Source: Bellilinea sp. (GTDB lineage: Bacteria > Chloroflexota > Anaerolineae > Anaerolineales > Anaerolineaceae). From it: 64,000 nt of DNA. The notes below the pieces were generated by a model that was given only the letters and a program-made list of their open reading frames with translations, did no database searches and was not told the origin of the DNA. This document shows positions 60,080-64,000 of this stretch, piece after piece. The stretch's first letter is position 1. Each line of letters begins with the position of its first letter. A program made the translations under genes and the position numbers. The DNA is taken from NCBI GenBank assembly GCA_026003615.1, contig BPHQ01000002.1, forward strand, positions 124,001-188,000, read 5' to 3'.

Positions 60080-61433
<1,354 letters not shown>

Positions 61434-61454: not shown

Positions 61455-61488
61455 CAGCGGGCAGGAATGTCCTGCCCGCTGATGTTTT
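61455..61488. terminator. Bidirectional terminator after eno
   Basis: CAGCGGGCAGGA / TCCTGCCCGCTG, 12-bp perfect arms around ATG, then ATGTTTTAATTTTTC; between convergent eno and the hydrolase gene. Confidence 0.88.
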
Positions 61489-62743
61489 AATTTTTCATTC
61501 GAAATTGTTCTGCAAAGCCTATCACTGCGGCTTCCGTTGCGGCGTAGCCGGGGTTTGATCGCTGATTAATATTGTGATCTCCCTCTGTTTCGATATATTC
61601 GAGGGGTGCACGAATCTGTCGAATTAAGGCTTTGGTGCCTTGAGGTAATACGACAGGATCGAATTTCCCTTGCACTACCAAAGTTGGAACACGGATATTG
61701 CTTAAGCCTTTGATGATCAGCTGGCTCAGCCGTCGGAATTGTTCTAAAAACACCATCGGTAAACGGATGTCCATCAAAGACCGCCGCACCTGTGGATCAT
61801 CCAGATTGAAGCCCGGCAGAAGTTCGGTTGAAGCAGCCCGAAATTGCTCAGGTCGCAGCCAACGCGTCCGAAACGGGTAGATGGAAACCGGTAGTATTGT
61901 TCTAACCGGCAGCGCCAGCCATTTGACCCACCAGGGTTCTGCCTTCCAAAAGGGAGAAAGCAAGATTAAACCATCCGGTTTGGTGCGGCTGGCTACCGCC
62001 AGAGAAATGCCCCCTCCCAGCGAGTATCCCATCAGTACAAGACTGGTGCATAATTTTTGCGCAATTCCACCAGATTCTTTTCCACCTCAGTCAGCCACTC
62101 CGTTACCCGTGTCTGGAACAGTTGAGAAAATGCCGGGCCGTGACCGGGCAGACGCAAGAGACGCACATTCCAGCCGGTTTTGTTTAATGCCTCGCCCAGT
62201 GCTCTCATTTCAGCCGGGCTACCGGGGAAGCCATGCACTACCAGCACTGCACCGCTATGCCAACCCCTCAAATCAGTGGTGTCATGCTGGGGTTCTTTGA
62301 ATATCCCCAGATCAGGGAGAAGGCTCTCCAAAGGGGTATGAAGAGCATGCCACAGATCGAAAAGGAGCAAGAAACCCCCTCTGTACAATTATGCCCGCCC
62401 CCGTACCGGCCAAAAATGGCTCAGCCATTGCGTTTTGGGAATAAAGCAATCCCCCGCCAGCAATATAAAGGACGTCCAAACCAGTATTAATCCATAATAT
62501 CTTTCGTAATTTTTTCGTTTCTTTTTCAGCCACCTTCAAGTCCACTGGTTGATACAATTTGGGCAAAGAAGAGCGCAAACCCCACATTGCAATCAATGCG
62601 TCCACAGCAGCCCAAACCAATGCCTGAATGGCAAACCCGCGCCAGAAATCCCCCCTCCCAAAAACCAGTAACCCTGCAAGAACGCTGATGAAACTCCACA
62701 GCAGCAGCCGCCTGGAAATAAGATGCTGATAATCCCAAACCAT
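61487..62743 (-). pseudogene. Membrane domain plus alpha/beta hydrolase, broken by two frameshifts
   Basis: Three overlapping frames read as one locus. 62743-62380 encodes a membrane protein with about four hydrophobic segments; its frame is lost at a run of five G (plus-strand C at 62375-62379). With four G the sequence continues IIVQRGFLLLFDLWHAL. The next frame carries the hydrolase N-terminus (VLVVHGFPGSPAEM, LRLPGHGP). It is lost near 62036, where one missing base would give APVLVLMGYSLGGG, the Ser-nucleophile elbow. The last frame has the acid FDPVVLP and the His in EGDHNI. The shifts cancel, so the product could be a roughly 418-residue fusion, or two adjacent genes. ATG lies 1 bp after the SDR stop. 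Confidence 0.72.
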
Positions 62744-62744
62744 G

Positions 62745-63377
62745 TCAATCCAAAAACAGTTCTTTATAATTATTTTGATAAGCCGAATACATTTTTCGAG
62801 CCAGGTCTTCTGCTCTGAGTGCAGTTACGGGTAACCGGAAGGGTACTTTTTTCCATAATTCAGTGCTAACTGCTCCCGGTCGCACAACCACAACAGTTCT
62901 TTTGGTTTCCTTACGCAACACCTCGGCAAAAGATTCCAATCCGGCTTTGGCGGCTGCATATACCGCCAGACCAGGAAGGCGCATTCGTTCGCTGACCGCA
63001 CCCAAAATGTAAATTGGCGCGCCTTCGCTCAGGAGTGGCATACTTTCATGGATGGCATAAAAAACACCAGTCAAATTAGCATTTAAAATTTGCTGCCATT
63101 CGTTTTCATTCATCTCGCTAATCGGTTTCGATAGTATATCACCAATTGCGTAGACCCACCAATCTACGCCGCTTATCTCCTGGGCCATGGCCGCCACGCC
63201 TTCCCGTACAGTAGTTGGATTAGAAACGTCCACTTCAAAGGCCAACGGCACGATCTGGCGCGCCTTCACTTCGTTTCTCGTGGTGCCGGCCACCTCCCAG
63301 CCCTCACTCTGCAACAATTTTGCCAGCGCAGAGCCAATTCCACCGCTTACTCCCCATATTAATGCTGTTTTAGTCAT
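62745..63377 (-). CDS. Short-chain dehydrogenase/reductase
   Basis: A 210-residue classical SDR. The NAD(P) loop reads GVSGGIGSAL, followed by the NANLTGVFYAI stretch, a catalytic Ser in LGAVSE and YAAAK (Tyr-x3-Lys). Oxidises or reduces an unknown alcohol/carbonyl substrate. ATG at 63377 overlaps the peroxiredoxin stop and has TGAGGAA upstream; the longer open frame to 63401 is not needed. Confidence 0.88.
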   Translation of the reverse strand: MTKTALIWGVSGGIGSALAKLLQSEGWEVAGTTRNEVKARQIVPLAFEVDVSNPTTVREGVAAMAQEISGVDWWVYAIGDILSKPISEMNENEWQQILNANLTGVFYAIHESMPLLSEGAPIYILGAVSERMRLPGLAVYAAAKAGLESFAEVLRKETKRTVVVVRPGAVSTELWKKVPFRLPVTALRAEDLARKMYSAYQNNYKELFLD

Positions 63378-63852
63378 ACTGTTCCTCGTTGATTTGATCA
63401 ATAACCTTTAAGACTTCTTCATTTTCTGGAATATCCGACATGGATGAAGCGTAATGCTTATATCGAATGATTCCATCCTTATCAATCACAAACACAGCCG
63501 GCATCCTGCCCATTTTGAATAAATTTACTTCCTGGTAATATCTATCCGCAATTTTCGATTTGATATCGGGTATCCCGATAAAAGGCATGTTTTCCTCTTC
63601 CCAAAATCGCTTATACGCACGTGGCCCATCAGGCCCCAAAGCAATTATTTCAGCACCTCGGCGGCGAAACTCCTCGTAGTCCTGACGCAACTGCGCCATA
63701 TGCTTCACGCAGTATGGTCACATAAATCCGCGATTGAAAACCAAAACAATGATATTTTGACCTCGAAAATCAGACAATTTCACGGTATTCCCATGGGTAT
63801 CAACCCCTTCAAAATCGGGTGCAGGAATGTTGATTTTTAGTTGCCTGGTCAT
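63370..63852 (-). CDS. Peroxiredoxin (AhpC/TSA family), probable selenoprotein with TGA-encoded Sec45
   Basis: A 160-residue thiol peroxidase if the TGA at 63720-63718 is read through. From the ATG at 63852 the frame gives INIPAPDFEGVDTHGN and VLVFNRGFM, then TGA, then PYCVKHMAQLRQDYEEF and a normal C-terminus (GRMPAVFVIDKDG). The TGA occupies the peroxidatic Cys of the RGF-x-C-PYC motif, leaving U-x-x-C. Without the upstream part the remaining frame (GTG at 63708) lacks the active site. A SECIS-like hairpin lies 25 nt after the TGA. Shine-Dalgarno-like GGGAAG precedes the ATG. Alternative: a Cys codon mis-sequenced as TGA. The flanking hydrolase and SDR genes are tightly spaced. Confidence 0.78.
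63683..63698 (-). promoter_or_regulatory. SECIS-like hairpin in the peroxiredoxin mRNA
   Basis: UGGCGC-AGUU-GCGUCA on the minus strand: a 6-bp stem with one G-U pair and a tetraloop with G second, U third. Its loop begins 25 nt after the UGA, within the range of bacterial selenocysteine insertion elements, whose loops also carry a GU. Confidence 0.5.
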
Positions 63853-63865
63853 ATGATCTTCCCAT

Positions 63866-64000
63866 TTATTTATTGATATCTGAAAGAAAATTAACTACCG
63901 CCTCCAAAAAAGGCTGAGGACACTCTTCCTGCGGAACATGACCACAATTTGGAAAAACCACCAGTCTTGCACCAGGAATTTCGTTTGCCAACCGAAGACT
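63866..64000 (-). CDS. Alpha/beta hydrolase C-terminus (5' part missing)
   Basis: The last 44 codons of a gene entering from the right edge: ARLVVFPNCGHVPQEECPQPF followed by a short helix and stop. The NCGH block is the catalytic-His end of an alpha/beta-fold hydrolase. It ends 13 bp before the peroxiredoxin ATG on the same strand, suggesting one transcript. Confidence 0.7.
   Translation of the reverse strand, partial: SLRLANEIPGARLVVFPNCGHVPQEECPQPFLEAVVNFLSDINK

Follow-up and report, generated by a model that had tools for sequence, protein, structure and literature searches.

An in-frame TGA read as selenocysteine in a peroxiredoxin-like gene of Bellilinea sp.

Does the TGA that interrupts a peroxiredoxin-like reading frame in Bellilinea sp., an uncultured member of the Anaerolineaceae (Chloroflexota), end a gene, or is it read as selenocysteine (Sec)? 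The frame lies near one end of the 64,000-nucleotide stretch of DNA analysed here (the window), and a preliminary description, made from the sequence alone, had proposed that a selenoprotein is hidden by this stop codon. The evidence that the gene encodes a real selenoprotein is strong, and every test that we could apply upholds the Sec reading.

The interrupted frame and its neighbours

The features on which the argument turns are these:

63370 to 63852, minus strand: Sec-containing peroxiredoxin-like gene, 160 amino acids followed by TAA; active site R41-G-F-M-U45-P-Y-C48
63718 to 63720, minus strand: TGA codon 45, read here as Sec; TGA in 37 of 37 aligned Sec homologues, TGC in five Cys homologues
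63683 to 63698, minus strand: bacterial SECIS (bSECIS) hairpin; stem UGGCGC (63698-63693), loop AGUU (63692-63689), stem GCGUCA (63688-63683)
63858 to 63863, minus strand: GGGAAG, a putative Shine-Dalgarno-like sequence 5 nt upstream of the ATG
62745 to 63377, minus strand: downstream short-chain dehydrogenase (SDR), with an ATG that overlaps the 3' end of the preceding selenoprotein gene (ATGACTAA)
63866 to 64000, minus strand: 3' end of an upstream alpha/beta hydrolase, 323 amino acids, continuing past the window

The minus-strand sequence agrees with the 160-codon frame and lone TGA at codon 45 that had been described: the frame opens with an ATG at 63852, closes with a TAA ending at 63370, and has the TGA at 63720-63718 as its single internal stop. 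The surrounding residues read FNRGFM-U-PYCVKHM, and the second cysteine, Cys48, is indeed present in the translated frame. Protein similarity had been claimed on both sides of the TGA, and a Pfam AhpC-TSA match (PF00578) runs continuously across it from residue 10 to residue 131 (5.2e-28; 97.9 bits, cut-off 26). Plain annotation, it had been predicted, would give only a truncated piece from 63708; an ORF finder run without re-coding does start at GTG 63708, and returns 112 amino acids that lack the first active-site residue.

That output is what a pseudogene would give, or true termination followed by a functional C-terminal fragment that starts at GTG 63708, since the ORF caller delivers exactly this 112-residue piece. 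The piece, however, is without the N-terminal fold elements and U45, and the window gene carries no other stop. Amino acids are strongly conserved on both sides of the TGA in homologues at 40-86% identity, and synonymous positions downstream of it are constrained. On the conservation across the TGA, the single stop and the synonymous constraint we reject the pseudogene, and leave this explanation as a whole almost no probability.

The start codon of the SDR overlaps the stop of the selenoprotein gene, and the two are therefore probably co-translated. The order hydrolase, selenoprotein, SDR is kept in two genomes of the genus (G002 and G006), and in Ornatilinea apprima the gene likewise has the SDR beside it; elsewhere the neighbours differ, and they offer no functional clue beyond this conserved SDR partner. 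The SDR itself ends in TGA (62747-62745), so that UGA also serves here as an ordinary stop. This bears on the idea that UGA has been reassigned genome-wide to another amino acid, or is leakily read by a near-cognate tRNA, either of which would leave the frame open if UGA were a sense codon. Besides the SDR stop, a tRNA-Sec with SelA and SelB, the exchange of Sec for Cys at codon 45 and a positioned SECIS hairpin all speak against it; on these four grounds we reject reassignment, and consider the explanation very improbable.

Two further genes in the window are broken. An enolase (60143-61433, plus strand) is cut in two by a frameshift near 61090 and is a single 429-aa ORF in G002 and G006; the frameshift is probably an assembly indel, one sign of indel errors in this genome. 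A DUF6992/alpha-beta hydrolase gene (61487-62743, minus strand) falls into three ORFs through two compensating frameshifts, at about 62390-62310 and about 62090-62030, and has 416 amino acids in G006.

Codon 45 among the relatives

The frameshifts in the enolase at about 61090 and in the DUF6992/hydrolase gene between about 62390 and 62030, both genes being intact in relatives, could be taken to mean that the TGA is itself a sequencing or assembly error and that the real codon is TGC or TGT for Cys. The errors seen in this window assembly are indels, though, not substitutions. The same TGA stands in all 37 aligned homologues, from the window and from other genomes, and in the isolates Ornatilinea apprima and Longilinea arvoryzae, and the SECIS hairpin behind it is under selective maintenance. 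Because homologues share the TGA we reject a sequencing error, whose likelihood we put close to nil.

The homologue search covered 201 relatives, and of the best 102 matches in them (those of at least 98 bits) 96 have a TGA in the aligned stretch, five have no stop and one has both TAG and TAA. Aligned codon by codon, every one of the 37 Sec homologues, the window gene included, has its TGA at codon 45, where five others have TGC. A further 24 loci from named organisms, some in the same genomes, all carry TGA at codon 45, and the two isolates are among them. The preliminary description had proposed comparing this codon in relatives, and the comparison came out as TGA in dozens and Cys in a few; the TGA is kept across several families, in homologues whose identity ranges from 86% to about 40%. 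In an alignment of 26 sequences R41, U/C45, P46, R116 and P118 are invariant and C48 nearly so.

In a tree of 65 proteins (midpoint root, one long-branch join) the Cys forms require three state changes, on the starred branches; one coincides with the deep split to distant proteins, and the others fall within the Sec clade. This fits an ancestral Sec here that was lost to Cys at least twice, for which the sequences provide moderate evidence. One homologue (L061; G096:C3:1523840-1524301) has an internal TAG and TAA and a disrupted active site, and is probably a second paralogue turned pseudogene.

Outside the Chloroflexota, Facklamia (Bacillota, Aerococcaceae) encodes the same Sec protein (L092:4001-4453 and L095:4001-4450), and its genomes have a tRNA-Sec (68.7 bits). 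In the tree Facklamia and a KSB1 sequence are sisters within Chloroflexota, and lateral transfer is therefore likely.

The decoding machinery and the SECIS hairpin

The preliminary description inferred that the organism decodes UGA as Sec, pointed to selA, selB, tRNA-Sec and selD as the genes to look for, and held that a lack of both selB and tRNA-Sec would count against it. The genome to which the window belongs (G000; 1.65 Mb in 2 contigs, 71.5% complete) has a tRNA-Sec at 72.3 bits (cut-off 47), also called by ARAGORN as tRNA-SeC with anticodon TCA, a selB at 345 bits (cut-off 242) and a selA at 438 bits. With TGA conserved in relatives, these bear out the inference. Within the window, Rfam finds one tRNA only, a tRNA-Leu by ARAGORN.

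The exception is selD, no true copy of which was found in this 71.5%-complete assembly. Two candidates reach 76 and 55 bits against a cut-off of 125; they look like related AIR-synthase-type proteins, and one adjoins a HypD-like gene and is therefore probably HypE. A true selD, mostly with an in-frame TGA of its own, is present in the same-genus genomes G001-G004 and G007 (91-99% complete), and among the genomes of the genus it is missing only in G000, G005 and G006 (71-77% complete, the latter two 76-77%), which is why we read its absence as an assembly gap. When the selD region of G002 was sought at the DNA level in G000 and G006, with no positive control, nothing was found. G020, which is 98% complete, has a tRNA-Sec and a TGA-containing homologue, yet nothing in it passes the cut-off for selD.

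Under the published bSECIS model the apical loop has 3-9 nt, with a G among its first two positions, the stem has 4-16 bp, the distance from the UGA is 16-37 nt and the minimum free energy (MFE) is at most -7.5 kcal/mol (PMC13188914). The window hairpin has a 4-nt loop, AGUU, with G at its second position, a 6-bp stem, a distance of 25 nt from UGA to loop and an MFE of -8.1 kcal/mol, and thus agrees with that model, although it is the best fold only for the shorter segment. When 40 nt are folded from the UGA, a longer alternative pairing that involves the UGA is preferred, at -16 kcal/mol. We nevertheless favour the upper hairpin, because a translating ribosome occupies that region and because of the conservation data.

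Across the 37 Sec genes, the ratio of observed to background synonymous-codon entropy drops to 0.27, 0.00, 0.24 and 0.52 over codons 53-56; most other conserved codons give about 0.8-1.0, and a few 0.5-0.7. The frozen codons are GCG CAG TTG CGY, whose bases form UGGCGC-AGUU-GCGYCA. Counting stems of at least 5 bp in 55 non-redundant bacterial Sec genes, we find the hairpin kept in 50, with 45 at the 25-nt place and 5 at a second place, where the loop lies 16 nt after the UGA; synonymous-codon shuffles lead one to expect 6.3 +/- 2.4 hairpins, and the maximum in 500 trials was 15 of the 55. The stem is compensated in Ardenticatenaceae L079 (GCAC/GUGC), and in Facklamia it reads AUGC/GCAU around the loop AGUU, with MMQLHK replacing MAQLRQ, so that the stem was kept while the protein changed. 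In the Cys homologues the hairpin is absent or altered and the codons have drifted.

In five genes (L063, L064, L065, L091 and L035), at two separate places in the tree, the hairpin sits about 9 nt nearer the UGA, as GCGCGC-AGUUG-GCGCGC and GUGAGC-AGUUG-GCUCAC; we interpret this shift as relocation of the SECIS within one gene family.

Converging computational evidence thus supports decoding of the UGA as Sec, and we regard it as highly likely that the gene makes a UxxC redox selenoprotein through SelB-delivered Sec at codon 45 and an in-gene bSECIS. SelB would bring Sec-tRNA-Sec to the in-frame UGA, guided by the hairpin 25 nt downstream in the coding region. The predicted product is a small thioredoxin-fold protein of the peroxiredoxin superfamily, probably cytosolic, with U45-P-Y-C48 as its redox pair.

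Active site and relation to known families

An AlphaFold2 model built on the 26-sequence alignment (pLDDT 94.7, pTM 0.91) predicts, with high confidence, a fold of the peroxiredoxin superfamily. The nearest solved structures are the Bcp/PrxQ proteins Bcp1 and Bcp4 and the AhpE peroxiredoxins (Z about 24, rmsd 1.5-1.8). In the alignment with BCP, the Thr of TPGC is matched by U45 and the peroxidatic Cys by C48. The preliminary description had placed Sec at the peroxidatic position, the first Cys of the motif; that wording is inexact, and does not stand, because U45 corresponds to the TxxC Thr, and C48 to the peroxidatic Cys. Aligned with ResA-like proteins of the same genome, U45-P-Y-C48 lies on their CxxC, with U45 on the first Cys.

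The alignment with BCP invites another reading of the chemistry, that of a true peroxidase in which Cys48 attacks peroxide first and Sec45 serves as the resolving or recycling residue. In its favour, Cys48 corresponds to the peroxidatic Cys of BCP/PrxQ and U45 to its Thr, the fold is closest to that of peroxiredoxins, and R116 is invariant. Position 45, be it U or C, is nonetheless the invariant one, whereas Cys48 is lost in two homologues, L050 (G024; active site CPFA) and L098 (Lokiarchaeia; UPYA). The loss of the second Cys there, with position 45 kept, points to residue 45 as the primary nucleophile, and the ResA-like CxxC geometry, together with a cis-Pro-type RMPA motif, favours disulfide chemistry. 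We hold a Cys48-first peroxidase to be unlikely, while giving it a real minority share of the probability. In the cycle that we prefer, which we infer for both substrate and catalysis, Sec45 would most likely make the nucleophilic attack in a UxxC thiol(selenol)-disulfide/peroxide oxidoreductase, Cys48 would resolve the selenenyl-sulfide, and a thioredoxin-like system would then reduce it.

Proteins of this kind have been catalogued before. The "Prx-like thiol:disulfide oxidoreductase", PF00578 with UxxC/UxxU, is a predicted selenoprotein (PMC13188914, Table 1; PMC9312934) represented by WP_010940744.1 (PMC13188914). A "Prx-like protein, UXXC" was reported from the Sargasso Sea (PMC1088965) and "Prx-like 1", a Prx-like UXXC selenoprotein, in the GOS study (PMC2398784). 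Prx-like UXXC selenoproteins are known from Geobacter and other deltaproteobacteria, in an early survey that counted only three selenoproteins in Chloroflexi (PMC1794560), and an Asgard survey lists a Prx-like selenoprotein (PMC11227280). By domain and motif (PF00578, UxxC) the window protein would fall in this published family, with which it shares UxxC in place of TxxC/TxxU and a predicted Sec with bSECIS; likened to it on that basis, it sits in a Chloroflexota-centred clade with a conserved SECIS of its own. Since Sec in UxxC Prx-like proteins is already on record, the finding is less novel than first rated: the protein adds to a catalogued selenoprotein family and is not a new kind of system.

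Other families resemble it less closely. Its best NCBIfam match is NF040769 (SelL-related redox protein), which all 26 family members match; the window protein scores 72.6 bits against a curated cut-off of 120, over residues 10-94 only, and we reject membership on that score. BCP/PrxQ and AhpE peroxiredoxins (3drn, 3hjp, 1xvw) have the same fold, with about 30% identity to Bcp1/Bcp4, but TxxC where the window protein has UxxC, Sec replacing Thr. A classical Sec peroxiredoxin (TxxU, PxxxTxxU) is rejected, as Sec takes the Thr position and Cys48 the peroxidatic one. The ResA/TlpA thiol-disulfide oxidoreductases align their CxxC with U45-x-x-C48 and have the xxPxxFxID motif in common with it, whereas the window protein looks cytosolic, with no signal peptide by eye, and has a conserved Prx-type core and Sec. 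The Asgard Prx-like selenoproteins (L096-L098) are 35-36% identical and have UGA at the same codon but, in contrast to the window gene, no bSECIS behind it; archaeal SECIS elements are placed in the 3' UTR by the literature.

A limited literature search found no paper on the selenoproteomes of Anaerolineae or Facklamia, though such papers may exist; within that search, less seems to have been described of how widely the protein occurs in Anaerolineales, of the SECIS relocation and of the transfer to Facklamia. We tentatively sketch a history that we think possible, if somewhat less than probable: in Anaerolineales the Prx-like protein would be ancestrally Sec; its bSECIS would have moved inside the coding sequence on two or more occasions (loop 16 rather than 25 nt from the UGA), the protein drifting to keep the stem; gene and Sec decoding would have reached Facklamia by lateral transfer; and Sec at the Thr position beside a Cys at the peroxidatic position would make a hybrid of peroxiredoxin and thioredoxin chemistry. 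The finding adds a widespread Sec-containing Prx-like clade to Chloroflexota, one whose members stop-codon-based annotation would truncate, and the family offers a good natural experiment in the way an RNA signal placed in coding sequence constrains a protein gene and shifts its position there. Since Ornatilinea apprima and Longilinea arvoryzae are cultured hosts, the enzyme is open to testing.
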